IMG/VR virus record: IMGVR_UViG_3300045257_000140
Span: 1 to 44,684 of that record
Length of the DNA: 44,684 nucleotides
Origin: a virus
Reading direction: 5' to 3' (one strand)
The position numbers were made by a program, and so were the translations under genes. Below, piece by piece: positions 1-44,684 of this stretch. The notes beneath the pieces were generated by a model. The model was not told where the DNA came from, made no database searches, and saw only the letters and a program-made list of their open reading frames with translations. Positions within the stretch are counted from its first letter, which is position 1, and each line of letters begins with the position of its first letter.

Positions 1-342
1 GCCACCAAAAGGAACGAATCGTGTTTTCTCCGGATGCTTTTCTAGCAGCCCGGCGTCGTGCGTCAAGAGCATGTCCAGCTCCGGAAGTAGACTTTCGGCG
101 ATGAGGTAATTCTTCGGCCGGTACTCGCGGCATTCGAGTAGCCATCCGATCGTCACCTTGCTTTCGAGGACGGAGAGGACGTTGCTGTTGCACAGGAGAT
201 CGTCCGTGATGAGCGTCACGCCATGCCATGTCAGGCGGTTGCGGACATACTGAACCCGGCGAGCCGTCTTGCCATGAACGCTGGAGCCAGCGCCGCCTAG
301 ATTGTGGCTGAACGCCGAGTCAAATAAATTGCAGGTCATCAT
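1..342 (-). CDS. GT10-like fucosyltransferase, N-terminal part (runs off the window)
   Basis: The first 114 codons of a glycosyltransferase, cut by the window edge. The protein is nearly the same as the N-terminus of the complete GT10-like gene at 43303-44133, with changes concentrated in the first ~15 residues. Its ATG (342) overlaps the stop of the ColD-like gene in an ATGA arrangement, so the two are probably translationally coupled. If the contig is circular, the gene continues at 43794 and this is an allele of the same locus rather than a second gene. Confidence 0.75.
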   Translation of the reverse strand, partial: MMTCNLFDSAFSHNLGGAGSSVHGKTARRVQYVRNRLTWHGVTLITDDLLCNSNVLSVLESKVTIGWLLECREYRPKNYLIAESLLPELDMLLTHDAGLLEKHPEKTRFVPFGG

Positions 343-768
343 GGCCTGAACTCGCGCAAGACTTCCGGAAGCAGATCGATCTGCTCCGGCGTCATCTGCG
401 GATGGATGCCGACATAGCACGCATGGTCGTGCAGGAAATTCGCTCCCGTCAGCGGTCCGGCGATGCGATGCTTGATCTTCTGCAAGGCGGGCTGTCGCGC
501 CATGTTCCCGGCGACGAGCGGCCGATTCTCAATGCCGTGCGCTTCGAGGTGCGTCAGGAGCTTCGCCTTGAAGTCGCCGCGGCAGACCAGCGGGAAGGCG
601 AACGGGACGGCGCCCGGCTGCCACTTGATCGGCTGGAAATGGTCCTGGTTGAGCGCCGCAGTCCAGATCCGCGCGATGGACCGGCGCGCATGAACCCACG
701 GTTCGCGCTTGGCGAACTGCACCAGGCCGATAGCCGCGCGCACATCATCTCCGCGCAAGTTATAGCCG
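1..768. repeat. Left copy of imperfect terminal repeat
   Basis: This stretch is repeated at 43795-44684. The first ~120 bases match almost perfectly and the ColD-like part (339-768) aligns without gaps, with scattered mostly third-position differences. The right copy is longer by about 122 bases because a 42-codon ORF lies between the two shared genes. The arrangement fits a circularly permuted or circular genome whose two contig ends come from variants, or a true tandem duplication. Confidence 0.9.
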
Positions 769-1607
769 ACCTCGCCGAACAGGAAGCGCGGATCGATGGA
801 GGGATTCGCGGCCTCTAACTGCTTGCGCATTTCCGGCAACAGGTCACGACTCAAGCCGTGAGACCGGATAGAGCGTAGCCGCGAGGCATCCTCTGCATCT
901 CGGCAGAGCACCATGCCGCCTTCAATGGTCGTGATGTGGTGTGAGATATAGAAAGAGAAGGTGCCGAAGCGGCCGAAGGTGCCGACTTTCTGGCCGCCGA
1001 TGTCACTATCCAGGGCTTCGCAGCAATCCTCGAAGGCCCTATCCCGACAGGCGCCCCCCAGCGTTGTGGTAATGGTCCCCGGTGGGTCATCGATGAGCCT
1101 GCGGAAATTATGATTCCCCAAGAGATAAACCAGGACTACCCCACCCACGGGATGATCGATTCGCTGATATGCAACGCATAGCGTCTCCGGGTCGACATCG
1201 GCGATAACGGGAATGATCCCATGCTGCGCCATGGGCCATATGGTCGTCGGCCAGCCCACTGCTGGGACCATCAAATCGTCTCCCGCCTTCAGTCCTAGAC
1301 CGGCCATCGCCAGTAGATTCGCCGAGCTGCCGCTGTTGCAGAAGACGGCATCCGCAGAGCCATGCGCCTTGGCAAAGGCATCCTCGAATGCCCGCACGCG
1401 CCAGCCCTGCGTCACCGGCCCGCAGATGAGCGCCTCCAAGGCCGCAGCGATCTCCTCGACGCCTAGGGCCTCTGGGCTCACCAGCGGCAGGCGATATTTG
1501 CTCGGCTGGATGGGATAGGCATCACGGAGCCGCTGGGCGGCTTGCAGAAAATCGGGGTGGCCGATCAATCTGGCGCCCCGCCAAAAACGCGACCACACTT
1601 GAGGCAT
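339..1607 (-). CDS. ColD/RfbH-like PLP-dependent sugar 3-dehydratase (DegT/DnrJ family)
   Basis: A fold-type I PLP enzyme of the DegT/DnrJ/EryC1 family (422 aa from ATG 1607). It has the phosphate-binding stretch NSGSSANLL, the GDD..VPAVGW region and EDCCEAL. At the place where aminotransferases carry the Schiff-base lysine (SFHxxK) it reads SFYISHHITTIEGG, so lysine is replaced by histidine. That swap defines the 3-dehydratases ColD and RfbH/E1, which remove the C3 hydroxyl of a nucleotide-linked 4-keto-6-deoxy sugar. The C-terminal GIENRPLVAGN and GYNLRGDD motifs also fit ColD. The open frame extends to 1703; ATG 1607 overlaps the preceding small gene by 43 bp, and a TTG at 1568 (TTGA overlap) is an alternative start. 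Family is secure; the exact substrate (GDP- or CDP-sugar) is inferred. Confidence 0.85.
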   Translation of the reverse strand: MPQVWSRFWRGARLIGHPDFLQAAQRLRDAYPIQPSKYRLPLVSPEALGVEEIAAALEALICGPVTQGWRVRAFEDAFAKAHGSADAVFCNSGSSANLLAMAGLGLKAGDDLMVPAVGWPTTIWPMAQHGIIPVIADVDPETLCVAYQRIDHPVGGVVLVYLLGNHNFRRLIDDPPGTITTTLGGACRDRAFEDCCEALDSDIGGQKVGTFGRFGTFSFYISHHITTIEGGMVLCRDAEDASRLRSIRSHGLSRDLLPEMRKQLEAANPSIDPRFLFGEVGYNLRGDDVRAAIGLVQFAKREPWVHARRSIARIWTAALNQDHFQPIKWQPGAVPFAFPLVCRGDFKAKLLTHLEAHGIENRPLVAGNMARQPALQKIKHRIAGPLTGANFLHDHACYVGIHPQMTPEQIDLLPEVLREFRP

Positions 1608-1741
1608 CGGAAACAACCGTGGCGATCCAGCGCCCCGTCGAGGCCGACACTCAGCGAATCGCCGAAATAAATTCGCTCCGAATGCCGAGTATTCCACCAA
1701 CACTTGATCGTCTTCCAGGTTTGACGCCCGGCTCGTTTCAT
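1565..1741 (-). CDS. Small CxxCxxC-type protein (58 aa)
   Basis: Starts at ATG 1741, which overlaps the stop of the GT11 gene (ATGA) and has a clear GGGAGG upstream. The C-terminal segment CFRCLKCGRVF looks like a half zinc ribbon; the N-terminus is basic and aromatic. It overlaps the start of the ColD-like gene. No family recognised. It may be a small zinc protein of the many carried by this phage. Confidence 0.6.
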   Translation of the reverse strand: MKRAGRQTWKTIKCWWNTRHSERIYFGDSLSVGLDGALDRHGCFRCLKCGRVFGGAPD

Positions 1742-2475
1742 AGAACCTCCCAAGATTCAGGGCAGAGATCTGTCGTGTCCCAGCCGGCCTTGGCTGGGCC
1801 GAACCATCTGCGAGGAAAGATCACCCGCTTGGCAGGATTCGGATTCAGCCACGCCCCCCACCAGCTATAGCTTGAATTCGCTATTATGTTGTGATCGCAG
1901 AGGATCATCCTCTGGAGATCCCGGTCTGGGCTGAACCCTTCCGAGAACTCCACATCCTTGCCGGCGAGATTCGCCCTGCACCACTCGATGTCATCGGAGA
2001 ACACAATGAAGTGGGCACCGGGGAACTGCGCCATCGCTTGTCGGTAATACTCAACCGAGCAAGGCGGGTGATGATGCGGGAAGGTCAGATAGTCTCCGCG
2101 CCTGACATGAATGGAGACCCAGTCCTTGAACCGAGGCCACCCGACAGGATCGCGGAAGGTGAACTCCTGTCTGATCTGCTCGGCATAGGGCGCGAAATAC
2201 TTTTCGGACTGGAAATAGCCAGAGAGGAGCGTCCAGTCGGGCAGATCCCAAAACTCAGGGGCGAAGTGAAAATGGGGCTCCTCGAACCACTTGCTCGATG
2301 GAATGGCCATCACCGGTTCACTGAGGGCATGCAGATTGAATATCTGATGCAGGTCCGGCTTATTCCTCGGGAAGGCGCAATCGACTCCGCGATGCAAGCT
2401 CAGCGCCTTCGTGGCCGCGTATTGGAAAAGTTCGTTCCCCAAGTGGCCATAATATCCGGGCCGATAGGCGATCAT
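1738..2475 (-). CDS. GT11-family alpha-1,2-fucosyltransferase-like glycosyltransferase
   Basis: 245 aa from ATG 2475, which overlaps the upstream stop as ATGA. The N-terminal GHLGNELFQYAATKAL, the central SIHVRRGDYLTF and the late SSYSWWGAWL and VIFPRRWFG motifs are the standard GT11 set (O-antigen alpha-1,2-fucosyltransferases; some bacterial members transfer colitose instead). The longer open frame up to 2586 lacks family similarity and was not used. It sits upstream of a ColD-like 3-dehydratase, which makes a fucose- or 3-deoxyfucose-type donor likely. Family assignment is firm; donor and acceptor are inferred. Confidence 0.88.
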   Translation of the reverse strand: MIAYRPGYYGHLGNELFQYAATKALSLHRGVDCAFPRNKPDLHQIFNLHALSEPVMAIPSSKWFEEPHFHFAPEFWDLPDWTLLSGYFQSEKYFAPYAEQIRQEFTFRDPVGWPRFKDWVSIHVRRGDYLTFPHHHPPCSVEYYRQAMAQFPGAHFIVFSDDIEWCRANLAGKDVEFSEGFSPDRDLQRMILCDHNIIANSSYSWWGAWLNPNPAKRVIFPRRWFGPAKAGWDTTDLCPESWEVL

Positions 2476-2693
2476 TCGTGGGCGCAGTGGAAGTAACAGA
2501 CCCCATCGATCTGGCAGGTATCCACCAGCGGCGAGCAGATGACCTTCGCCTCTCCATGTCCGGTCCATGGGTAGCAAGTCTGGCAACCTTGCTGATCCAT
2601 GACGCTCGGCAGCGGTGAATTGTCCGAATCGTGATGCCGACCTGAGCAGGCAAGGGCGAGAACTGAAATCAGCAGAACCGCGATCGTCTTCAT
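2472..2693 (-). CDS. Small secreted or lipoprotein-like cysteine-rich protein (73 aa)
   Basis: Starts at ATG 2693 with a strong GGGAGGAAAC ribosome-binding site. It begins with a short charged end and a hydrophobic stretch, MKTIAVLLISVLALACSG, which looks like a signal peptide with an imperfect lipobox (LALAC). The mature part has six further cysteines, including CQTC and CYFHC, as in a small disulfide-bonded exported protein. It leads directly into the GT11 gene (ATGA). Function unknown; a surface-exclusion or envelope role is possible. Confidence 0.65.
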   Translation of the reverse strand: MKTIAVLLISVLALACSGRHHDSDNSPLPSVMDQQGCQTCYPWTGHGEAKVICSPLVDTCQIDGVCYFHCAHE

Positions 2694-2827
2694 GTTTCCT
2701 CCCGAGGCTTCCTCTTCCTCCAGCGAGCGTTCACGGCATCCCGCATCAGACGCGAGCGCTCTTCCTTCGGCACGTCTTTCCACCGCTTCCTGCCAAGCAC
2801 CCGGGCGGCGCGATCCTTCTTCTTCAT
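2690..2827 (-). CDS. Small basic protein (45 aa), LGRKxW...EERSRLMRDAVNARW type
   Basis: A short ORF from ATG 2827 whose stop overlaps the next start (ATGA). The segment LGRKRWKDVPKEERSRLMR followed by NARWRKRK resembles the small basic proteins or domains with LGRKGG..LTPEERSE..ARKAA.ARW found in many phages and plasmids, whose function is not established. It has no clear Shine-Dalgarno, but a good promoter places the predicted transcript start at or within two bases of the ATG. Confidence 0.55.
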   Translation of the reverse strand: MKKKDRAARVLGRKRWKDVPKEERSRLMRDAVNARWRKRKPREET

Positions 2828-3119
2828 ACGACCGCACGTTAAGCCATACAAGCGGACGTGTCAACGGAATTTTTATGTTATGATCCCGCTGCCTCCGCAG
2901 CACGGAAGGACGTGCCGCACATGAGGGGTTGGGGCTCCCTTCAGTTGAGCCTCTGGCCGGCCCTAACTCATGGAGCGTGGGGATTCCAAAGCCGGATATC
3001 GAGGCCGGCCGGAGGTTCATAAATCCGCCTCCGGTGTCCATCTGTCACGCTGTATGGTAGTGGGTCAGTTTGAAATCGCCCACCTTGACCCCCTCGCAGG
3101 GGCGCAAGCGGAGGTCGCC
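2828..3119. other. Divergent intergenic region (292 bp)
   Basis: Contains the leftward promoter at 2864-2836 and, on the plus strand, a -10-like TATGAT at 2879-2884 with no convincing -35. A small hairpin (GCACG 2900-2904, CGTGC 2911-2915) and a GGCCGGCC pair follow. No ORF with coding character seen until ATG 3120. Confidence 0.5.
2836..2864 (-). promoter_or_regulatory. Sigma70-like promoter of the glycan operon
   Basis: Reading leftward, TTGACA (2864-2859), 17 bases, then TAACGT (2841-2836). The expected start point is about 2828-2829, next to ATG 2827, so the message would be nearly leaderless. CACGT and ACGTG arms flank the spacer (2835-2839 and 2856-2860), a possible operator. Confidence 0.55.
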
Positions 3120-3778: not shown

Positions 3779-3863
3779 GCGGTGGCTCGCCTATTGGTGT
3801 AGGCAAGCGGCTGTTAACCGCCTCTCCTGACCGAGATTGCGGGTTCGAATCCCGTCCACCGCG
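3779..3863 (+). tRNA. tRNA-Asn (GTT) with a long variable arm
   Basis: A 7-bp acceptor (GCGGTGG 3779-3785 with CCACCGC 3856-3862), D arm GCCT/AGGC with GG in the loop, anticodon loop CTGTTAA (3811-3817, anticodon GTT) on a GCGG/CCGC stem, and T arm GCGGG-TTCGAAT-CCCGT. The variable region is 16 bases (3823-3838) and can pair TCTC with GAGA. Asn tRNAs normally have a short variable loop, so this one has a class II shape. Positions 8-9 are also unusual. CCA is not encoded. Confidence 0.8.
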
Positions 3864-3948
3864 CGCACGGGACCGTTCCGGCGGAAATCATACGCACAGA
3901 ACTGCGGAAAGCAACAAGAGCCTTGCGCCAGATTGACGCATGGAATAC

Positions 3949-11495: not shown

Positions 11496-12398
11496 GTGGA
11501 CGAAAAGAATGTGAATGCTCCGCAGGAAATGCAGACCAGCGGCGAGTTGGACGAGATCTCGCGCGAGTTCCTGAGCAAGAAGACCGGCATCTTCGTCGCT
11601 GTCCCGAACATGGGCGGCATGATCAACACACCGCTCTCGACGTGGATCAACTGCCTGGCCTATCGGACGATCGATGCCGAGAATCCATACTTCTTCAAGA
11701 TTTATGCGCCGACCGATCTCGCGCCTGTGGAGTATGCAAGGAACGAATGCGTCCGCGAATTCCTGAAGGACCCATTCTACAAGAAGCTCTGGTTCGTCGA
11801 TGCGGACATGGTGCCTCCGGTCAATGCGTTCGATCTGCTCGACCATGACGAGGACATGGTCTCCGGGATGACCTACATCTGGAACAGTGGCATGGTCGAT
11901 CGAGAAGGGCACTATGTCCCGCCGAAGATGAAGATCAATGCCTTCGACTTCCGTCCGGGTCATGAGGACTTCATCAGCAAGATTCCCTATCCAGACAATC
12001 GCTCGTTCTACTGCGATGCGGCCGGCGCGGCCTGCATGGTCTTGAAGCGGGAACTTCTGGAGAATATGCCGGAGCCGTGGTTCCGGACGGTGCGCGATCC
12101 CTATGGTGCAGGGCTGCGCGGAGAGGATCTGGACTTCTGCAAGCGGGCGAAGGATGCGCTGGGGACGAAGGTGCTCTATATGCCTTCGGTTCAGTTCGGG
12201 CACATGAAGCGGATCGATCTGTCCGAGGTCACGAAGTATGGGCTGGCCTCCATGCGCAACATCATCGATCAGGTTAAGAAGATGGACCCGGCGAAGATCA
12301 AGTCCGATCTGCCAGATATTCACTTCCAGGGCGAAGTCAGGGCTCCGGAAGAGGCGAGCATGCCGCGCGACTTCAAAGTCGTCGGGGGTAACGGATGA
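11496..12398 (+). CDS. GT-A fold glycosyltransferase within the head gene cluster
   Basis: 300 aa from GTG 11496, four bases after GGGGGAGGA. GT2-like features: IFVAVPNMGGM at the N-terminus of the fold, the DxD motif in LWFVDADMVPP (~residue 107), EDMVSGMTYIW, and GLRGEDLDFCKRAKDALG with KVLYMPSVQFGHMK (the acidic ED and late His of family-2-like enzymes). It lies between two paralogous putative decoration genes and is co-transcribed with virion genes. A virion protein, rather than a host polymer, is therefore a reasonable acceptor; this is inference. Confidence 0.8.
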   Translation: MDEKNVNAPQEMQTSGELDEISREFLSKKTGIFVAVPNMGGMINTPLSTWINCLAYRTIDAENPYFFKIYAPTDLAPVEYARNECVREFLKDPFYKKLWFVDADMVPPVNAFDLLDHDEDMVSGMTYIWNSGMVDREGHYVPPKMKINAFDFRPGHEDFISKIPYPDNRSFYCDAAGAACMVLKRELLENMPEPWFRTVRDPYGAGLRGEDLDFCKRAKDALGTKVLYMPSVQFGHMKRIDLSEVTKYGLASMRNIIDQVKKMDPAKIKSDLPDIHFQGEVRAPEEASMPRDFKVVGGNG

Positions 12399-20520: not shown

Positions 20521-21345
20521 ATGAGCCTGACGGTTGTCTGCTATCCGGTCAGCGACCTCGGACCGAATGACGGGGTCCGCTTCGGTGCCGCCACGGCGTT
20601 CGATTGCCTCGCGCAGGATCCGCATGACGGCGACACGACGCGCATCAAATACAGCGCCTCCATGCAGCAGAATGTGTGCGGCGTGGACTGGTCGGCTATT
20701 CCGACTGATGCCCATGTCGTATCCGTGACTGTGCGCTGGACTGAGGCAGGCACATCAACAAGCTCGCAGGCGCAGGGGGGCTTGCGGGATATCGTGGTCG
20801 GCGATAATAATTATGGTCCGCTCCGCTCGCTCTCTCCGCACAGCTATAGCCAGTTCAATGAAACCTTCTCCGTCAACCCGGAATCGGGCCTCGGGTGGCG
20901 GCGCTCGGACCTCGATAATCTCGCATTGGCACATCTGCAAGGCTCGCTAGATTCAGAGCTTCAGTATCCGCGCTTGACAGCGCTCGTGGCTGTCGTGATT
21001 TATGACCCGGCGCCGGTCCATGATGAAGGCTCCGCGGAATCGCTTGGGGTCGCGGCATCCGCATCCGGCGGACCTCCCCATGCCGCCGCCATAGGGAATG
21101 CTCCGGATGCCGCGGCTTCATCTCTCGCACAATCAGGGTCAGGATCCGGCCAGGGCCAGGATGCCGCGGCCCAATCGCTGGCGCCCTCCGGTGCCTCTTC
21201 AGGCCAGGGAGCGCGCGGTGCCGGGACAAGCATTCAGGGTTGCACGGCCATTGCCGCTTCGCTTGCGCCCATCGGCGAATGTGCGCCTCTGTCTCCATCG
21301 GCGTCGGCCGTCTGGCTCATTCCAGAAATCGGAGACGCGCAATGA
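20521..21345 (+). CDS. Minor tail protein with Ala/Ser/Gly-rich C-terminus (274 aa)
   Basis: Start ATG 20521 after AAGGGACGG. Residues 1-165 form a beta-rich domain (TTRIKYSASMQQNV, VSVTVRWTEAGTS, LTALVAVVIYDP). Residues ~170-250 are a repetitive linker (AAASSLAQSGSGSGQG, AAAQSLAPSGASSGQ), as in spacer arms of tail fibres. A fibre or adaptor is likely; the specific role is inferred. Confidence 0.55.
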   Translation: MSLTVVCYPVSDLGPNDGVRFGAATAFDCLAQDPHDGDTTRIKYSASMQQNVCGVDWSAIPTDAHVVSVTVRWTEAGTSTSSQAQGGLRDIVVGDNNYGPLRSLSPHSYSQFNETFSVNPESGLGWRRSDLDNLALAHLQGSLDSELQYPRLTALVAVVIYDPAPVHDEGSAESLGVAASASGGPPHAAAIGNAPDAAASSLAQSGSGSGQGQDAAAQSLAPSGASSGQGARGAGTSIQGCTAIAASLAPIGECAPLSPSASAVWLIPEIGDAQ

Positions 21346-23165
21346 GCAGCCTGATCGGGCTGACGGTCGATCCGAATACCTATGACATCACGATTCTGCG
21401 TGGCGACGATCAGACGGTGCGGTTCACTGTCACGACTTCGACGGGCGCAGCGCAGGATGTGACTGGGTGGTCGTTCAAGTTTACCGTCAAATCCAGCCTG
21501 GATGATGCGATCGGATTGGCTCTATTTCAGAAGACGACGGGCGGCGGCGGAATTGTTTTGACGACTCCGGCCAGTGGGATTGTGGATGTCAGCCTGTCCG
21601 CATCCGACACGCAAGCGATGTCCGGAAAGTATTTCTATGACTTGCAGGGAGTCGATCTGACCGGCCTGACGAAGACTGTTCGCGCCGCCATTTTTTATGT
21701 CAGAAAAGACGTGACAACTCCCGGCGTGGCCGGCCTGCCGGCGCAGTTCCTTTTCACAGCACAGGGCAGCACGGGAAGTGCCTCTATTTATTCAACGCTT
21801 CAGGCCGCAATGACCTATGCCGGAACACAGGCGAGTGCCGCGAATCCCTGGACAGTTAAGATGCTCCCGGGCGTCTATTCGATGTCGGCCGTCCTGAATT
21901 GCGCGAATCTTTCCTATGTGACGCTTCAGGGCTCCGGCATCGAGAATACGTTGCTGCTACGCTCCACCGCGCTGACGGATTCCGGCGGAAGTATTCGCTT
22001 GCTTGATCCTGTTGTGGATTTCAGCGGTTCAACGCGCTGTGCCATTGCTGATATGACTATCGAGCATGATGGAACGATGGGCGCGAATGCTCATCCCTGC
22101 GGCCTTGTCATCAGCAACTCGACCGGATTCCGCGCGACGAATCTCCGCATTCTGTCCAGCTATGTCGGAGTCGAGGCACAGAACACTGTTCCGCCGAGCG
22201 GCGGGAATGATGCCACGCAGAACACCTTCACCGGCTGCAAAATTGTTGTTGTGAACGCGGGCGATGGCAATGCCGATACTTTTTATACGACGAAGTGTGA
22301 CATCCACTTTTACAACTGTTATATGGAGATGTCCGCTACTGCTAATGGCCCGGACTGCCTTTTTGCCGGAGCGAACGAGCGAATCGTCATCATCGGCTGC
22401 GAGTTCGTCAGGCGTCAGACTGGGGGGGCGGCGGGAATCGGCCGCGTCATGGTTACGCAACCGGTCAGCAGCGGGAATGCCACGAAAATCTACGCAGTCG
22501 GATCGCGCTTCTATAATGACTGGAGCGCCGGAGACATCAATTCGGCGACGGGCGACTGCACGGTCATCGATATTACCGGAGCCGGAACGGCGGACACGGA
22601 TATTTCATTCGACGGCTGCAAGATCGATTATGAGAGCGGAGCCCTCACGAGCGCGCGTACCCTGTGTGGTCTTCAGGTCGGGCAGGGTGGCGGATCGGGG
22701 ACGGCCTTTACTGTGCGATTGAATGGGACGGAGATCCGCGATCTAGGCGGCTCTGGCGCCACGAATCGCAAGGACATCATGATTCTTGTGAGCGCCAGTG
22801 GCGGGGTCAAGCAACCGAAGGCCATCTATGTGACAGGCGGCAAGGTGTCATCCTGGGGATATCGCTCGAACTTCGGGACGCCCGCTGTCTCGCATACTTC
22901 GATGGTGGTGCGTGAGCCGACCGCAAATTATCAGACCGGCTCGGCAACGCTGAATGCCGGGACGCCAGCTACCGTTGCCGTCACGCTTCCGGTGGCCTAT
23001 CCGACCATGAGCACGGCCGTCGCGGATTACAACGTCATCTTGGAATTCCCGACGAACCCAGGCACGGAGAGCTTCTGGGTCAGCGGCAAGACGAACACGG
23101 GCTTCACGATCAACTCGACTCTGAATGGATCGACAACGGTCATTCGCTGGACGGTCCTGCGATGA
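21342..23165 (+). CDS. Tailspike/fibre with BppU-like N-terminus and right-handed beta-helix
   Basis: 607 aa from ATG 21342 (ATGA overlap, GGAGA upstream). Residues ~1-125 look like the BppU N-terminal fold that plugs receptor-binding proteins into baseplates (ITILRGDDQTVRFTVTTSTG, WSFKFTVKSS). Residues ~145-520 look like a pectate-lyase-type right-handed beta-helix: AAMTYAGTQAS..PWTVKMLPGVY, YVTLQGSGIENTLLL, CAIADMTIEHDG, FRATNLRILSSYVGV, NTFTGCKIVVVN, DISFDGCKIDY. A beta-rich tip follows. Such spikes bind or cleave host surface polysaccharide; catalytic residues cannot be assigned by eye. Confidence 0.82.
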   Translation: MSSLIGLTVDPNTYDITILRGDDQTVRFTVTTSTGAAQDVTGWSFKFTVKSSLDDAIGLALFQKTTGGGGIVLTTPASGIVDVSLSASDTQAMSGKYFYDLQGVDLTGLTKTVRAAIFYVRKDVTTPGVAGLPAQFLFTAQGSTGSASIYSTLQAAMTYAGTQASAANPWTVKMLPGVYSMSAVLNCANLSYVTLQGSGIENTLLLRSTALTDSGGSIRLLDPVVDFSGSTRCAIADMTIEHDGTMGANAHPCGLVISNSTGFRATNLRILSSYVGVEAQNTVPPSGGNDATQNTFTGCKIVVVNAGDGNADTFYTTKCDIHFYNCYMEMSATANGPDCLFAGANERIVIIGCEFVRRQTGGAAGIGRVMVTQPVSSGNATKIYAVGSRFYNDWSAGDINSATGDCTVIDITGAGTADTDISFDGCKIDYESGALTSARTLCGLQVGQGGGSGTAFTVRLNGTEIRDLGGSGATNRKDIMILVSASGGVKQPKAIYVTGGKVSSWGYRSNFGTPAVSHTSMVVREPTANYQTGSATLNAGTPATVAVTLPVAYPTMSTAVADYNVILEFPTNPGTESFWVSGKTNTGFTINSTLNGSTTVIRWTVLR

Positions 23166-28013: not shown

Positions 28014-28051
28014 CCCACCATCCCCACGGCGCAGAGAGCGAGACGGATCAT
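28010..28051 (-). CDS. 13-codon micro-ORF bridging two genes
   Basis: ATG 28051 overlaps the stop of the methyltransferase gene (ATGA) and its own stop overlaps the next start (ATGA). It encodes only MIRLALCAVGMVG. It may exist to carry ribosomes to the next gene rather than make a product. Confidence 0.25.
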   Translation of the reverse strand: MIRLALCAVGMVG

Positions 28052-29121
28052 GCGGTGGCCTCCATGAATGCCCTTACGAACTCCGCCGCGACTTGCGGAA
28101 CAATGGCATTGCCGTAACCGCGCAGTCGTCCCACTCTGGCGGGAACCCCATGAGCCAGCGGGAATGTGCCGGATTCAACGCGCCTCTGCTTCCCGTCGGC
28201 GCAAGGAAGCAGGTCGCTTGGTTGCCAAGCGTCAGGCCAAATCCGTTCCCGTTGTTGTGGCGCGCCTTGCACTCCGCTTGGCGCTCTTTGATTCGCTCGG
28301 CGCTCATCGTTCGCATCTCGGCTGCGCTCGGTGTCGCCCATCCGGCCACCGTTTGCAAGTTCTCCCCGCCCTCGCCGCGCGTCCCAGTTCCGGTCACATT
28401 CGATGCCTTCGGAGAGGGCCAACCCATTGGGAAGTTCCCGTGACTGTCTGGCTCGCCCCACTTGTTCGCAAGGGGGTTCGGCCAGCCGCTCAACTGCGCC
28501 GCTGCCGCCAGCGTCAATCCCGCCCCGTTCCCATTCTTCCATTTCGCCTTCGCTCTGTCGCGCCGCGCTTGGTTCGACTCCGGCGATTGCCCGTCGTTGA
28601 TCTCCGTTGCGCTTGGCGTCGGCCACCCAGTAGAGCCGCTGCCTGATGTGCGGCGCCCCGACGCCCGCAACGCACAGATCGGCGGCCCCGACGGCATATC
28701 CCAATGCTTCCAGGTCAGCGCATATTCCGGCGAGCCATTCACGTCCAGCCTTGCTCGCAACCTGCTCTCCAAAGATCGTTGGAGGTCGGCACTCGCTGAT
28801 GAGCCTGAGCCACTCGGGCCAGAGGTGGCGGGCGTCGGCGGTTCCGAGGCGCTTCCCGGCTGCGCTGAACGGCTGGCAGGGGCAAGAGCCGGTCCAAACG
28901 GGTCGGTCTGCTGGCCACCCGGCGAGCGCGAGCGCATACGGCCATCCTCCGATCCCGGCGAAGAAGTGCGAGCGGGGCGAACAGTCATCGGGTTGCACCT
29001 CGATAATGGAGCGGGCATCAACGTCGCCGGATTCGATCAGCTCGCGGGCGATCAGTTCGCGCAGCCATGCGGCAGTCTTTGGATCGTTCTCATTGTAGAG
29101 AGCGAGACGGAGGCGGGTCAT
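28048..29121 (-). CDS. DNA cytosine-5 methyltransferase
   Basis: 357 aa from ATG 29121 (ATGA overlap upstream). C5-methyltransferase motifs: FFAGIGGWPYAL (motif I, ~54), GSCPCQPFSAAG with the catalytic Cys (motif IV), FGEQVAS (motif VI), HIRQRLYWVADA (motif VIII) and LRGYGNAIVPQVAAEFV (motif X). The ~120-residue variable region between motifs VIII and X is low-complexity and would recognise the target. The likely job is protection against host restriction or control of phage genes. A second open frame lies inside it (28074-29021). Confidence 0.92.
   Translation of the reverse strand: MTRLRLALYNENDPKTAAWLRELIARELIESGDVDARSIIEVQPDDCSPRSHFFAGIGGWPYALALAGWPADRPVWTGSCPCQPFSAAGKRLGTADARHLWPEWLRLISECRPPTIFGEQVASKAGREWLAGICADLEALGYAVGAADLCVAGVGAPHIRQRLYWVADAKRNGDQRRAIAGVEPSAARQSEGEMEEWERGGIDAGGSGAVERLAEPPCEQVGRARQSRELPNGLALSEGIECDRNWDARRGRGELANGGRMGDTERSRDANDERRANQRAPSGVQGAPQQRERIWPDAWQPSDLLPCADGKQRRVESGTFPLAHGVPARVGRLRGYGNAIVPQVAAEFVRAFMEATA
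28074..29021 (-). other. Possible dual-coding frame inside the methyltransferase gene (315 codons)
   Basis: This minus-strand frame is open for 315 codons. It contains ATSGPSGSGSSASADLQ, GSPEYALTWKHWDMPSGPP, ICALRASGRRTSGSG, four GW[PA][TNS]P repeats and the end LNPAHSRWLMGFPPEWDDC. I recognise these motifs from proteins annotated in many phages as methyltransferase-like. GC-rich DNA opens spurious frames easily, so it is listed as a candidate only. It has no clear ribosome-binding site of its own. Confidence 0.35.
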
Positions 29122-34908: not shown

Positions 34909-35030
34909 TTAACCTCCGATGTTGGCGACGGCTGGCCGAGCCGATCGGCAAAAGCCAGCCGCCGCCCTTTCGCCGGTTGGCCAGGAGAGTCGGTCTCCGG
35001 CCCGTCAGAGGACGCCCGGCGGCGTCCCAT
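34905..35030 (-). CDS. Basic 41-aa micro-protein bridging two genes
   Basis: ATG 35030 is fused to the stop of the DUF6745-like gene (TGATG) and its stop overlaps GTG 34908 (GTGA). MGRRRASSDGPETDSPGQP, then KGRRLAFADRLGQ. It fills the gap exactly; whether the product matters is unknown. Confidence 0.35.
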   Translation of the reverse strand: MGRRRASSDGPETDSPGQPAKGRRLAFADRLGQPSPTSEVK

Positions 35031-36325
35031 CACGTCTCCACCTGCGGCTGGTACTTCTCCGCGTCCATCCCGAACGTCCAGGCCACGGCCTCGCGCGGCA
35101 TTTTCATCTGCGGCGGCACGCGCAGGAAGTAGATGTGCCGCGAGCCGTCCGCCTCCGGCGTCGAGTTCACGACGCGCACCATCACGAGCGGCTCATCGTT
35201 CGGAATCTCTTTCCGATACAGCTCGCCGAACTGGTCCTCGCCGATCTTCTCGGCCTTCGATTCGAGCAGGTACTTCGTCTGTCCCATCCGCTCGATCATC
35301 ACGCGCCGGACCTCGGCATTCGTCTCGGTCTCTATGTGCTTGACCGTGATCCATTCCGGCCGGACGATGACGAAGGCCGGCACCATGACGCCGTGCCAGA
35401 AGTAGAGATTCTCGATGTCGGACTCCAGCGCGGCATAGCGGTCGTTGTGCAACCGGCGCGTGTTCGGCGTCGGATCCTTGTGCACGGTAGGCTTCGCGAC
35501 CCAGTAGAGCGCGTCGGACGTCCAGTGCAGCAACCAGACTCCGGAGAGGAATGCCTCGAGGAGAGGCCCGCTCCAGCGCTGCACGGCGGCATCCTTCCGC
35601 TCGAGCGCGCCGAAGTGCGTCGTAACGATCCAGGAGATCTCCCACCGCCAGGTCCACCAGCCAGATGACTGGATGCACCAGGCCGCGAATCGATGGAGCG
35701 ACGCCTGCAGGGCCTCGATCGGGGCGTCGCGGGCGTCAAGGGCGTTGCGGGCGTTGCGGGCGTCGATGGCGTCGCGGGCGTCGCGGGCGTTGCGGGCGTC
35801 GATGGCGTCGCGGGCGTCGCGGGCGTTGCGGGCGTCGATGGCGTCGCGGGCGTCGAGGGCGTCGATGGCGTCGCGGGCGGCGAGGGCGTCGAGGGCGGCG
35901 AGGGCGTCGATGGCGTCGCGGGCGGCGAGGGCGTCGAGGGCGGCGAGGGCGGCGAGGGCGTCGCGGGCGTCGAGGGCGGCGCGGGCGTCGCGGGCGTCGA
36001 GGGCGGCGCGGGCGTCGAGGGCGTCGATGGCGTCGCGGGCGTCGCGGGCGTCGCGGGCGTCGATGGCGTCGCGGGCGGCGAGGGCGTCGAGGGCGGCGAG
36101 CCTCCGAGGATCGCCTTTCACCCACTCATCGAGGATCTCTCGAATCTGCCGGTCGATGCTCGGATGGTCGGCCAGGCTCCAGCCAGACGGCAGCCGGACG
36201 ATCTTCCGCTCTACATCAAGCGCCGCCAGGTACTCACCGAGGCTCTTCTCAACGGCTGCCTCATCGAGCGTCGCCGGGTAGTCGCAGGCCGCCTTATAGC
36301 GATCGAGCAGATCAGTCTGCGACAT
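35030..36325 (-). CDS. DUF6745-like protein with an internal tripeptide repeat
   Basis: 431 aa from ATG 36325. N-terminal ~105 residues are helical and acidic (SQTDLLDRYKAACDYPATLD, EILDEWVKGDPRR). A block of about 42 tripeptides [L/R/I]-[D/A/N]-A follows, then a Trp-rich region (WCIQSSGWWTWRWEISW) and a conserved C-terminus: NLYFWHGVMVPAFVIVRPEW, ETNAEVRRVMIERMGQTKYL, RVVNSTPEADGSRHIYFLRV, AVAWTFGMDAEKY. The C-terminus matches what I know as DUF6745, a family of unknown function. The stop of the 110-aa gene upstream overlaps by 14 bp, and that pairing recurs in other genomes as far as I recall. Confidence 0.8.
   Translation of the reverse strand: MSQTDLLDRYKAACDYPATLDEAAVEKSLGEYLAALDVERKIVRLPSGWSLADHPSIDRQIREILDEWVKGDPRRLAALDALAARDAIDARDARDARDAIDALDARAALDARDARAALDARDALAALAALDALAARDAIDALAALDALAARDAIDALDARDAIDARNARDARDAIDARNARDARDAIDARNARNALDARDAPIEALQASLHRFAAWCIQSSGWWTWRWEISWIVTTHFGALERKDAAVQRWSGPLLEAFLSGVWLLHWTSDALYWVAKPTVHKDPTPNTRRLHNDRYAALESDIENLYFWHGVMVPAFVIVRPEWITVKHIETETNAEVRRVMIERMGQTKYLLESKAEKIGEDQFGELYRKEIPNDEPLVMVRVVNSTPEADGSRHIYFLRVPPQMKMPREAVAWTFGMDAEKYQPQVET
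35723..36100. repeat. Tandem 9-bp repeat tract (378 bp) in the DUF6745-like gene
   Basis: About 42 nine-base units of the type GGCGTCGCG/GGCGTCGAG/GGCGTCGAT/GGCGGCGAG. Near the low-coordinate end they form longer 36-base units repeated about three times (12-residue DARDAIDARNAR-like period). Unit length is a multiple of three, so copy-number changes keep the frame. All six frames are open here, which explains the spurious ORFs on the plus strand. Confidence 0.92.
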
Positions 36326-36644
36326 TCCGGATCTCCTCCGGGCTGTATTCCCGCTGCCGCGTGACCTCGTAATTCCCAGTCGGCAGATCGATTGCGCCGT
36401 GCTCCTCGTGCCGAATGGACGTCGGGCTCGGCACCTCGAGGAAGCGGCGATCGCCGAGCGCGAGCAGCCTGGCATCGACATCTGTCGCCGGGTCCGCGAC
36501 GGCGATGGCGTGGGCGTGACCGGTCGCCTCGCCATAGGCCAGGACGATCCGCCCGCCTTCGAGTTTCACCGGCTTCGCTCCCTTCGGGACGCGGTTGATC
36601 TTCCTGATGAGCACGTCACCCTGTCGGAACATCTTCGGCTTCAT
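36312..36644 (-). CDS. Conserved partner of the DUF6745-like protein (110 aa)
   Basis: ATG 36644 after GAGGAGG. A beta-rich protein with MFRQGDVLIRKINRVPKGA, IVLAYGEATGHAHAI, RRFLEVPSPTSIRHEEHGAI, then LPTGNYEVTRQREYSPEEIR. The histidine-rich motifs (GHAHAI, HEEH) could bind metal. I recognise it as a widespread small protein of unknown function that is often next to DUF6745-type genes. It precedes that gene here with a 14-bp overlap. Confidence 0.75.
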   Translation of the reverse strand: MKPKMFRQGDVLIRKINRVPKGAKPVKLEGGRIVLAYGEATGHAHAIAVADPATDVDARLLALGDRRFLEVPSPTSIRHEEHGAIDLPTGNYEVTRQREYSPEEIRNVAD

Positions 36645-41400: not shown

Positions 41401-41512
41401 ATCACGGCGCACCTGGCGTGAGAAGCGCCTGATGGCTATGTCAGAGGCAGAACTAGAGCGCTATTTCGATGAGTTGACGGCGCTGGTGCTGTGCGATGGA
41501 GCGGAGAATTAG
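41372..41512 (+). CDS. Possible small ORF after the HNH gene (46 aa)
   Basis: ATG 41372 overlaps the HNH gene by 29 bp; ATG 41432 would give 26 aa. The end (SEAELERYFDELTALVLCDG) looks like a real acidic helix. It meets the leftward genes at 41509. Weakly supported. Confidence 0.25.
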   Translation: MQISAVPAFESRRTWREKRLMAMSEAELERYFDELTALVLCDGAEN

Positions 41513-41772
41513 CGATGCGATACCTCAGGACGCGGGCCGCACCATCTCGGGCCGGCCACGAGAGCCCTGGTATCGCCATCGCTTCCGCCGAAGTGGGCCG
41601 GCGATCGCACGTCAAAATGATCTTCCATCCAGGCCATCGTCTCGAACATCTGGCTTACAGAGGCTGGCGGCAGGCGTCGCAGAACGGCTAATTCGGTAAA
41701 TGGTTGTGACGCGAAGACGATGGAGCGGGTAACCGGGTGCCAGTCGTCGCCAGAGAATTCAGCGCGTTTCAT
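41509..41772 (-). CDS. Hypothetical protein at the end of the glycan operon (87 aa)
   Basis: ATG 41772 overlaps the stop of the FkbM-like gene (ATGA). FSGDDWHPVTRSIVFASQPF and SQMFETMAWMEDHFDVRSP. Unknown; position suggests an accessory role in the glycan pathway. Confidence 0.5.
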   Translation of the reverse strand: MKRAEFSGDDWHPVTRSIVFASQPFTELAVLRRLPPASVSQMFETMAWMEDHFDVRSPAHFGGSDGDTRALVAGPRWCGPRPEVSHR

Positions 41773-42317
41773 TTTCTGTCCCACCGTTCCCAGACGAACG
41801 GATCTCGCCAGGTGAGGGAGTGGGTGAGTGTGAGGCCGCGCTTGATGGCGAGGTATTTCTCGCCAAAGTCTGGGATGAAGGTATGGAACTGGATGATGAG
41901 TGTGCCAATTTGGCGCATCTTGTTGCAGGCGATCAGGCGGTCGAGGACTTGGTATTCGGCGCCCTCGATGTTGAGCTTCATGACGGCGAGGCGCTGATCG
42001 GCGAGGATGGCTGAGGCGTCGCGGAGCTGGATTTTCTGCTTGCCGATGCCGGCATGGCCCATTTCAAATACGGAGGAGCGGTCCCCGGCGATAGTGATTT
42101 CAGGTTCATGGTCGAAATCGGATAGGCCATACTGCTCGACATCGAGGCCGCGCTTCTTGAGCGTTCTTGCGTAGGTGGGGACAGGCTCAAACACCTTGAG
42201 TCTAACGAATGGTTCGATCACCAAGATGTCAGCCGCCCAACGGCCCTCGAAGCCGCCCACGTCCCAGACTAGGTCACCTGGCTTGATGTCCAGGTCAGCG
42301 GTCAGGCGTGGTTCCAT
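41769..42317 (-). CDS. FkbM-family SAM-dependent methyltransferase
   Basis: 182 aa. SAM-binding VWDVGGFEGRWAADI (motif I), VFEPVPTYARTLKKRG (the acidic post-I residue) and the FkbM signature LAVMKLNIEGAEYQVLDRLI. FkbM enzymes O-methylate sugars or other small groups, often capping surface glycans. The gene overlaps the GT2 gene by 16 bp. Confidence 0.85.
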   Translation of the reverse strand: MEPRLTADLDIKPGDLVWDVGGFEGRWAADILVIEPFVRLKVFEPVPTYARTLKKRGLDVEQYGLSDFDHEPEITIAGDRSSVFEMGHAGIGKQKIQLRDASAILADQRLAVMKLNIEGAEYQVLDRLIACNKMRQIGTLIIQFHTFIPDFGEKYLAIKRGLTLTHSLTWRDPFVWERWDRK

Positions 42318-43117
42318 TCCACCCTCTTGCAGGTTTTATCCCACGGAAGTAAATCGGAAATGATCTTGATCTGCGGCTTGTCCTGCATGACGACGTTGAT
42401 CGCTGATGCGCGCCCATGCTTGTTGACCATGAGGGTGCGATTCAGGCCGACGCGGTAGTCGGTCCAGTAGCCCTGGCTGGCATTGTTGCCGGTGAAGGCC
42501 CGCTCGTGGCTCTGATGGACCCCGGAGAAGCGGTCATCGAAGACGAAGTCCAGGCCATGTTTCCAGAGTCGGGCGGCCAGGTCGTCATCCTCGTAGCAGA
42601 CGCCGAGCTGGAAGGCTTCGTCCCAGCCGCCAATGGCCCGCAGCGCCTCAGTTGGGTAGGCGGTGAGGAACGTCATGGGGCGGGTATTGTCGGAGCCTTG
42701 GAGGATGGGCCCGGCATGGCCGGCACCTTTGCAGAGTTCCGGGTCGCTCTCGATCACGCGGCCGAACAGCACCGAGTTGGGCCGCTCGAGGAAGTGCTGG
42801 CGCACGATCTCGATGTTGCCAGCGGCCTGCACCACGTCGCTCGGGTTGTAGATGGTAATGTCTGCCGTCACCTTGGCAAGTCCGGCATTCGCGGCGATGC
42901 AGGGGGAGCGCCAGCCGGGGCGGCCGGAGAGAATAATCGGATTGCGGGCCATGTCTAGATTGAAGGCTCGGAAAAGTTCCGCAGATGGCCTATCCCAGAC
43001 GGACCGGATTGCATCTGTATCGAACTGGCCGCGGATGGAATTGAATACCGCTTCGATGACTTCGATCGGCTTGTCATGGATCGGCACCAGCACCGCGACA
43101 GTCGGCGGCCTATTCAC
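42302..43117 (-). CDS. GT2-like glycosyltransferase
   Basis: 271 aa from GTG 43117. VAVLVPIHDKPIEVIEAVFN at the start of the GT-A fold, ITIYNPSDVV in place of the classical DxD region, GGWDEAFQLGVCYEDDDLAARLW (the family-2 GW..F....EDxDL motif) and DFVFDDRFSGVHQSHE. DxD replaced by NPSD is unusual and may signal a different metal mode. Acceptor unknown. Confidence 0.82.
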   Translation of the reverse strand: MNRPPTVAVLVPIHDKPIEVIEAVFNSIRGQFDTDAIRSVWDRPSAELFRAFNLDMARNPIILSGRPGWRSPCIAANAGLAKVTADITIYNPSDVVQAAGNIEIVRQHFLERPNSVLFGRVIESDPELCKGAGHAGPILQGSDNTRPMTFLTAYPTEALRAIGGWDEAFQLGVCYEDDDLAARLWKHGLDFVFDDRFSGVHQSHERAFTGNNASQGYWTDYRVGLNRTLMVNKHGRASAINVVMQDKPQIKIISDLLPWDKTCKRVEWNHA

Positions 43118-43286
43118 TTTTGACCTCGAACACCGCGACGTGGCTCCATTCTCCGGGGGCAAAGATATTGACGATTTTCCTTGAAGGCGATCGGACTTCT
43201 AGGACGCCATGATCGACCTTAACCTCCACATCATCCCCGTCCGCATTGATCGAGCCAAAGGACCGGAATACCGTCGTCCGCATCAT
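43110..43286 (-). CDS. Small beta-rich protein (58 aa)
   Basis: ATG 43286 follows GAGGAGG. MMRTTVFRSFGSINADGDDV, then KVDHGVLEVRSPSRKIVNIF. Overlaps the next gene by 8 bp. Unknown. Confidence 0.5.
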   Translation of the reverse strand: MMRTTVFRSFGSINADGDDVEVKVDHGVLEVRSPSRKIVNIFAPGEWSHVAVFEVKSE

Positions 43287-43302
43287 GGCGTTCCTCCTCG
43301 AG

Positions 43303-44133
43303 TCATTCAAGCTCCCTCAGCACATGCTGATAAATCCAATCGTCCGTGACCTCGAACTCCCGCATCCGCTCCATGTTCTCCTTCGCCGCCTTGATGTGTC
43401 GCTGATACTCGCAGCCCTTAAGAATGAGCGGGATGTCCGCGGCGGTGTCGAATGTGATCACGCCGTCCATGTTGAACCACTTGCCGAGATTCGGGCAGCC
43501 CCAATAGATCGGGATCGTCCCGGTGGCGAAGCAATCGAGGAGCTTCTCCGTGAAGTAGTTGTCGGCGCGGCTGTTCTCTATGGCGATGGAGAACCGGTAC
43601 TCATCGAGCCCTTCCTCTTTGCGTTCGATTGGGTGCGCGCTCCCGCGGCCGAAGAGATCGATATCCTTGAACGCGAGCAGGGTGGCCTCCGCGACCCGAT
43701 GCCTGAGACGATGCCCCGGCATGAAGGTCTTTCCCGAGTAGATCATGGAGGCATGCTTTGACTTCTGGCGCATCGAGATCGTCTTCACCCAGGAGCCACC
43801 AAAAGGAACGAATCGTGTTTTCTCCGGATGCTTTTCTAGCAGCCCGGCGTCGTGCGTCAAGAGCATGTCCAGCTCCGGAAGTAGGCTTTCGGCGATGAGG
43901 TAATTCTTCGGCCGGTACTCGCGGCATTCGAGCAGCCATCCGATCGTCACCTTGCTTTCGAGGACGGAGAGGACGTTGCTGTTGCAGAGGAGACCGTCCG
44001 TGATGAGCGTGACGCCCTGCCAGGTCAGGCGGTTGCGGACATATTGGACATGGCGGGCGGTCTTGCCGTGAACGCTGGAGCCGGCACCGCCCAAGTTATG
44101 GGCGAATGCCTGATCGAAAACGTTGATGATCAT
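43303..44133 (-). CDS. GT10-family alpha-1,3/4-fucosyltransferase-like glycosyltransferase
   Basis: 276 aa from ATG 44133 (ATGA with the 42-aa ORF; the frame is open to 44163). The donor-binding GT10 signature is clear: EYRFSIAIENSRADNYFTEK, LLDCFATGTIPIYWGCPN, followed by DGVITFDTAADI. GT10 enzymes transfer fucose from GDP-fucose. Together with GT11 and the ColD-like enzyme this points to fucose-type decoration. Its N-terminus is allelic with 1-342. Confidence 0.85.
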   Translation of the reverse strand: MIINVFDQAFAHNLGGAGSSVHGKTARHVQYVRNRLTWQGVTLITDGLLCNSNVLSVLESKVTIGWLLECREYRPKNYLIAESLLPELDMLLTHDAGLLEKHPEKTRFVPFGGSWVKTISMRQKSKHASMIYSGKTFMPGHRLRHRVAEATLLAFKDIDLFGRGSAHPIERKEEGLDEYRFSIAIENSRADNYFTEKLLDCFATGTIPIYWGCPNLGKWFNMDGVITFDTAADIPLILKGCEYQRHIKAAKENMERMREFEVTDDWIYQHVLRELE

Positions 44134-44258
44134 GCGACCCATTTTGTCGAACACTTCATGCATGTTCTGACGGTGCGCAGTTGTCCCTTACGGATGCCGA
44201 CAGCCTGATCTAATCTTGACCATCGCCAGTGAAATATCCAGCAAATGATCAGTCTCAT
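44130..44258 (-). CDS. 42-aa small ORF present only in the right copy
   Basis: ATG 44258 overlaps the ColD-like stop (ATGA), and its own stop overlaps GT10 ATG 44133 (ATGA). It carries a CxxC motif (RTCMKCSTKWV) and a hydrophobic start (MRLIICWIFHWRW). In the left copy the two flanking genes join directly by one ATGA, so this ORF has been gained or lost as a clean unit. Confidence 0.5.
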   Translation of the reverse strand: MRLIICWIFHWRWSRLDQAVGIRKGQLRTVRTCMKCSTKWVA

Positions 44259-44684
44259 GGCCTGAACTCCCTTAGCACTTGCGGAAGTAGATCGATCTGC
44301 TCCGGGCTCATCTGCGGATGGATGCCGACATAGCAGGCATGGTCGTGCAGGAAGTTGGCTCCGGTCAGCGGCCCAGCGATGCGATGCTTGATCTTCTGGA
44401 GCGCCGGCTGTCGCGCCATGTTCCCGGCGACGAGCGGCCTATTCTCAATACCGTGGGCTTCGAGATGCGTCAGGAGCTTGGCCTTGAAGTCACCGCGACA
44501 GACCAGCGGGAAAGCGAACGGGACGGCCCCTGGCTGCCACTTGATGGGCTGGAAGTGATCCTGATTCAGGGCAGCAGTCCAGATCCGCGCGATGGACCGG
44601 CGCGCATGAACCCACGGTTCGCGCTTGGCGAACTGCACCAGGCCGATAGCCGCGCGCACATCATCTCCGCGCAAGTTATAGCCG
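44255..44684 (-). CDS. ColD-like 3-dehydratase, C-terminal part (runs off the window)
   Basis: The last ~143 residues of a second copy or allele of the enzyme at 339-1607. The protein differs from it at only two or three residues (for example QMSPEQ against QMTPEQ, LPQVL against LPEVL) although many silent changes are present, which shows selection for function in both copies. Confidence 0.8.
   Translation of the reverse strand, partial: GYNLRGDDVRAAIGLVQFAKREPWVHARRSIARIWTAALNQDHFQPIKWQPGAVPFAFPLVCRGDFKAKLLTHLEAHGIENRPLVAGNMARQPALQKIKHRIAGPLTGANFLHDHACYVGIHPQMSPEQIDLLPQVLREFRP

Follow-up and report, generated by a model that had tools for sequence, protein, structure and literature searches.

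The 44,684-base IMG/VR virus record IMGVR_UViG_3300045257_000140 (the window, i.e. the whole stretch of DNA analysed) derives from an uncultured phage. Genes for a large terminase, a portal/MuF fusion, an HK97-type capsid, a protease, and head-tail and tail proteins run rightward from ~4 kb. The two ends of the record hold a leftward operon encoding, in order, a Cys-rich lipoprotein, a GT11 glycosyltransferase (GT), a 58-aa open reading frame (ORF), a ColD-like 3-dehydratase, a GT10 enzyme, a GT2-like enzyme, an FkbM methyltransferase and a 91-aa ORF. All of these genes are on the minus strand, and most neighbours overlap at stop/start codons. Co-directional nucleotide-sugar and glycosyltransferase genes were thus found on the same genome as terminase, portal, capsid and tail genes, which places the operon among phage surface-glycan (lipopolysaccharide, LPS-type) cassettes. 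Most likely its products make fucose-type sugars and attach them to a surface glycan, either of the host or of the phage itself, and one of the attached sugars probably lacks the oxygen at carbon 3, like colitose. The features are as follows, with three related phages designated L004, L018 and L019.

2472-2693, minus strand: Cys-rich predicted lipoprotein of 73 aa, N-terminus MKTIAVLLISVLALAC, first gene of the operon; PROSITE-type lipobox match; overlaps the GT11 start
1738-2475, minus strand: GT11 glycosyltransferase (fucosyl/colitosyltransferase family), ATG at 2475, motif HVRRGDY; PF01531, phrog_2644 (1e-59)
1565-1741, minus strand: 58-aa ORF with a CxxC..C stretch, read from the sequence; overlaps both neighbours at stop/start codons
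339-1568, minus strand: ColD-like 3-dehydratase dependent on pyridoxal or pyridoxamine phosphate (PLP/PMP), TTG start at 1568, active site SFYISHHITTIEGG; PF01041, PDB matches, alignments, tree
1-342, minus strand: 5' part of GT10, variant A; continues at 43794-43303 across the contig ends
44255-44684, minus strand: terminal second copy of the 3' end of the ColD-like gene, strain variant; overlaps 339-768 at 92% identity
43303-44163, minus strand: GT10 alpha-1,3-fucosyltransferase-family gene with variant B 5' part, likely start near 44133; PF00852, PDB match
43163-43302, minus strand: short gap between GT10 and GT2, where L004 has an Fcl-like GDP-fucose synthase gene
42302-43162, minus strand: GT2-like glycosyltransferase, start probably near 43117, motif YEDDDLAARLWKHG; sub-threshold GT matches, conserved in L004, L018 and L019
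41769-42317, minus strand: FkbM-type methyltransferase; PF05050, TIGR01444, conserved in relatives
41509-41784, minus strand: 91-aa ORF of uncertain coding status; ORF only, overlaps the FkbM end, no Pfam match

An earlier note on this DNA had proposed a single leftward run, provided that the ends are joined, and this is borne out. Positions 1-768 align with 43795-44684 at ~92% identity; the outer ends are near-identical, and the inner part is diverged and contains an indel. When translated over the join, GT10 is an intact protein of 277 aa, collinear with the uninterrupted GT10 of L004, an IMG/VR relative (capsid 96%, portal 95% identical) in which the operon is unbroken on one contig. The terminal overlap and the intact GT10 indicate that the joining of the ends is right and that the operon is continuous. 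Judged by these alignments, the record is a circular assembly unrolled through the variable region twice, giving two strain variants of one stretch, and may represent a complete circular map of ~43.8-43.9 kb with both variants. A diverged terminal overlap of this kind would escape exact-repeat detection.

Family searches left both fucosyltransferase-like proteins where they had been placed, rather than outside GT10 and GT11. GT11 matches PF01531 (E=1.2e-27; 97.4 bits, cut-off 23.9) and has the HxRRGDY motif as HVRRGDY. GT10 matches PF00852 (2.4e-9, above cut-off) and Helicobacter pylori FucT in the PDB (6.5e-11), and carries the motif IENSRADNYFTEKLLD...IPIYWG as well as the EN..(Y/F)xTEK motif in the form IENSRADNYFTEK. 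For the FkbM-like protein the matches are borderline, with PF05050 just above its cut-off (5.8e-5; 23.7 vs. 22.7) and TIGR01444 below (2.3e-8; 34.6 vs. 37.7); the L018 orthologue clears the latter (42.9 vs. 37.7). The matches behind the GT2-like assignment were all sub-threshold: PF02709 (4.5e-4), EpsD (1.7e-6) and TIGR03965. TTG 1568 is the probable start of the ColD-like gene, in preference to 1703, because the 454-aa ORF beginning there overlaps the small ORF 1741-1565, of which no counterpart was seen in L004.

The ColD-like protein falls in the DegT/AHBA sugar aminotransferase family (PF01041, 2.5e-56), and its nearest PDB structures are ColD (2gms, 1.5e-46; 32% identity) and E1 (3bcx, 3.2e-46). 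Its SFYISHHITTIEGG aligns with SSFYSHHIATMEGG of ColD, the first His occupying the place of the Schiff-base lysine of aminotransferases, and in the four columns of the E1 [2Fe-2S] cysteines it has 0/4 Cys. ColD has a His at that site and is without an iron-sulfur (FeS) cluster, which E1 and SpnQ possess (PMC8987622). These residues agree with the earlier call of a ColD-like enzyme: the aminotransferase reading was rejected, His being present in place of Lys, and membership in E1/RfbH is unsupported, the FeS cysteines being missing. The HH pair is also present in homologues from S-CAM7, ACG-2014f, L010 and L018. Because a pattern containing HH was used to fetch the homologues from genome contigs, the His conservation among them does not count as independent evidence, whereas the cysteine result does.

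The three nearest cellular homologues (two Myxococcota, one Acidobacteriota) are 50-51% identical to the window protein and form a clade with it (SH-like approximate likelihood ratio test, SH-aLRT, 100). In all three, GMD lies directly downstream, followed by a short-chain dehydrogenase/reductase (SDR) 31-35% identical to Fcl. The unrelated viral lineages ACG-2014f, S-CAM7 and L010 likewise have a His-type ColD homologue adjoining GMD and Fcl; in L010, a separate viral lineage, GT10, Fcl-like, His-type ColD-like and GMD-like genes stand in a row (L010:168-4018). Because GMD adjoins the nearest cellular homologues and occurs in related phages, GDP-4-keto-6-deoxymannose, the substrate already suggested, is the likely one, and the enzyme is predicted to act on it with PMP regenerated from glutamate.

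A tblastn search of the whole window returned neither a GMD nor an Fcl/ColC homologue, in line with the earlier note, so the precursor and a reductase would have to come from the host or a co-infecting phage. The related phages form a series in this respect. In L004 a gene resembling GDP-fucose synthase (PDB GDP-L-fucose synthase, 4.3e-87) separates GT10 from GT2; this Fcl-like gene comes without GMD, for which tblastn gave no hit there. In L018 (portal 79% identical) ColD-like, GT11, GT10, lipoprotein, GMD, HTH/sigma-region-4, Fcl-like, GT2 and FkbM genes stand in a row before the terminase; the enzyme set of L019 (portal 62%) is the same, the regulator being replaced by an HNH-like ORF. At 432 and 475 bits, the GMDs of L018 and L019 exceed the curated gmd threshold of 415. 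As GMD and an Fcl-like reductase occur together in these two phages, lacking Gmd and ColC is a property of the window genome and not of the cassette type; from its gene content, the window phage would be a reduced version dependent on outside precursors. The regulator-like protein of L018 (L018:4742-5362), which combines an HTH_3 domain at its N-terminus with sigma-70 region 4 at its C-terminus, lies inside the glycan cassette and is a possible cassette regulator.

Identity between window and L018 ranges from 31% for the ColD-like protein through 45% (GT10), 52% (GT11) and 55% (FkbM) to 65% (GT2); GT10 is 84% identical in L004, and FkbM 54-68% across L004, L018 and L019. The glycan block is oriented with the terminase genes in L018 and L019 and against them in the window and L004, so that it appears to have been inverted as one unit. 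In the ColD-like tree L004 joins the window and the three cellular sequences in their clade, and L018 and L019 are placed elsewhere. Approximately unbiased (AU) tests of a separate origin were mixed (p=0.169 with 88 rows, p=0.028 with 39 rows), and replacement or independent acquisition of the ColD-like gene between the two pairs of phages is suggestive only.

The cassette genes are under purifying selection and are maintained, yet they change faster than the virion genes. Ratios of non-synonymous to synonymous substitution (dN/dS) between the two strain copies are 0.036 for the ColD-like C-terminus and 0.15 for the N-terminal part of GT10. Between window and L004 they are 0.155 (ColD-like), 0.115 (GT10), 0.19 (GT2) and 0.23 (FkbM), compared with 0.02-0.05 for structural genes.

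A lipoprotein gene lies inside the cassette in three of the four phages (window 2472-2693, L018:3523-3780, L019:3849-4121), the counterparts in L018 and L019 being 37% and 21% identical to that of the window. These small Cys-rich predicted lipoproteins are possibly receptor-masking or exclusion proteins.

Gene content, joined ends, active-site residues, conservation and context are read from the sequence, and from them we infer donor sugar, acceptor and purpose. In the full form of the cassette (L018, L019), GMD would produce GDP-4-keto-6-deoxymannose, the ColD-like enzyme would take off its C3 hydroxyl, and the Fcl-like epimerase/reductase would yield GDP-fucose and/or a GDP-colitose-type sugar. 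Of the remaining enzymes, GT11 and GT10 would attach the deoxy sugars and the GT2-like one a further residue, while methylation of the glycan would fall to the FkbM enzyme. In the window phage, GDP-4-keto-6-deoxymannose and the reductase would be supplied by the host or a co-infecting phage. WbgN, the colitosyltransferase of Escherichia coli O55, takes GDP-fucose as well (PMC12723683). The acceptor is most likely a host envelope glycan (LPS or capsule), which might be changed jointly with the exported Cys-rich lipoprotein; progeny virions would then not be trapped on debris, and rival phages could not adsorb. We suggest, with a probability of roughly 0.55, that the cassette modifies the host envelope glycan by fucosylation or colitosylation and so blocks re-adsorption or superinfection. 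Receptor-masking benefits of surface-glycan change have been discussed, lytic phages included (PMC12373910).

Several observations weigh against this interpretation. Without GMD or a reductase, the ColD-like enzyme of the window would rely on putative external precursors, and no polymerase, flippase, initiating transferase or other O-antigen assembly gene was seen. The Fcl-like SDRs of L004, L018 and L019 are nearest to Fcl but reach only 265-356 bits against a cut-off of 500, so that fucose and colitose cannot be told apart from them. The lipoprotein is absent from L004, and the lipobox of L018 is atypical. Finally, the head module contains a GT-A-like gene (11496-12398), a possible sign of virion glycosylation.

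A more far-reaching scenario is possible, though on balance doubtful: that these ~44-kb tailed phages cap a glycan with a true 3,6-dideoxyhexose of the colitose type, the ColD-like gene having been swapped for a distant ColD lineage and the block inverted, with some members shedding early pathway genes and using precursors of the host or a co-infecting phage.

The main rival, which we consider rather unlikely, is decoration of the virion itself. In this reading the head-module GT would start a glycan on a capsid or tail protein by adding one sugar, which the operon enzymes would lengthen with the GT2 sugar, fucose or a 3,6-dideoxy sugar, and methyl groups, shielding the particle or aiding adsorption. 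The GT-A-like protein in question (plus strand, DADM motif) is encoded close behind the major capsid gene, shows a constraint equal to that of the capsid (dN/dS 0.024) and is conserved in L004 and L015, which makes it a candidate virion glycosyltransferase; phage GTs that glycosylate virions are established in mycobacteriophages (Freeman 2023, as cited in PMC12619734). However, its assignment is based on weak matches. A PDB profile search with the GT2-like and head-module proteins gave nothing convincing, and the AlphaFold models of the two are of low confidence (pLDDT 37 and 31). The lipoprotein in three of the four cassettes suggests the cell envelope instead, and the cassette, an invertible block set apart from the structural genes, evolves faster than they do.

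It is improbable that only ordinary fucosylated glycans are made, the ColD-like enzyme being a passenger or having another substrate (e.g. an E1-like CDP- or dTDP-sugar). E1 and ColD do score almost equally as closest PDB relatives, RfbH is the top NCBIfam model, at a score far short of its cut-off, and the S-CAM7 homologue is annotated as a CDP-sugar dehydrase. Nevertheless, the FeS cysteines are absent, GMD adjoins in phages and in the nearest cellular homologues, the C-terminal part is under strong purifying selection, and the cassettes contain no recognisable CDP-glucose 4,6-dehydratase or E3-type partner. That the cassette is decaying or accessory stuffer DNA without function in the window phage, an idea raised for cyanophage LPS genes by Sullivan et al. 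2010 and in keeping with the absence here of the GMD and Fcl-like genes that L018 and L019 have, is very improbable, as the remaining frames are all intact and tightly overlapping in the window and L004, with purifying selection both between strains and between species.

The earlier note knew of no such combined set from phages, a claim that does not stand: S-CAM7, ACG-2014f, S-SRM01 and S-SCSM1 carry such sets. The Synechococcus phages S-CAM7 and ACG-2014f (Kyanoviridae) share the His-type 3-dehydratase and GT11 with the window and have GMD, GDP-fucose synthase, 3-dehydratase and GT11 in a row; the E1 cysteines are absent from the ACG-2014f enzyme, as in the window. They differ in being ~215-kb cyanophages with ColD homologues 29-30% identical to that of the window. 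The GT2 and FkbM proteins of the window had no match among phage records. The clusters of S-SCSM1, S-SRM01, S-SSM7 and P-SSM2 are alike in bringing a phage-borne GDP-fucose pathway or LPS genes with GT10, GT11, GT2 or FkbM members. S-SRM01 has GMD, Fcl, GT10, FkbM and two GT11 genes, no 3-dehydratase being seen in that stretch; these cyanophage genomes are much larger, whereas the window set is compact and reduced. For S-SCSM1, with GMD, GDP-L-fucose synthase and fucosyltransferases, host-surface modification was suggested (PMC9602691, 2022); an account of cyanophage LPS gene clusters left their function open (PMC3037559).

The GDP-colitose pathway of E. coli O55 and Yersinia (GMD, ColD, ColC; WbgN) resembles the system in its ColD-type site, its GT11-type transferase, and the GMD and Fcl-like reductase of the relatives. 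By contrast, the window enzyme is only 32% identical to ColD, GMD and ColC are absent from the window, and O-antigen assembly genes were not seen. Serotype-converting phage modules also alter host surface glycans with phage-borne enzymes; those described are glycosyltransferases and acetyltransferases in prophages (PMC12373910), whereas here the relatives add sugar-nucleotide synthesis. When full texts were searched for phage together with colitose and GDP-fucose, no paper on colitose synthesis by phages came up; the only one in the searched library with all three concerned E. coli pangenome markers. Glycan-building cassettes, so far known mainly from large cyanophages, are extended to a small, metagenome-only phage group with HK97-type capsid genes. 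The gradation from complete cassettes (GMD, ColD-like, Fcl-like) to reduced ones makes it testable whether phage sugar-nucleotide genes are functional, a question left open by Sullivan et al. 2010, and whether host envelope or virion is the target.

As to the rest of the genome, no integrase was found among the window genes tested, PADLOC returned zero defence-family matches on the window, and promoter and terminator scans gave no signal above chance. The capsid protein had no match in GTDB contigs and at best 22-26% identity in 385 genomes of the Azospirillum class, and a host was not found. A tRNA-Asn gene (GTT; 3779-3864, plus strand) separates the glycan cassette from the terminase genes. 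A C5 cytosine DNA methylase (28048-29121, minus strand; PF00145, 4.4e-15) and a DUF6745 protein (35030-36535, minus strand; PF20530, 2.7e-39) are also encoded. The C-terminus of a long tail-region protein (21240-23165, plus strand) weakly resembles the C-terminal domain of K1 capsule lyase (E=0.003, below cut-off).

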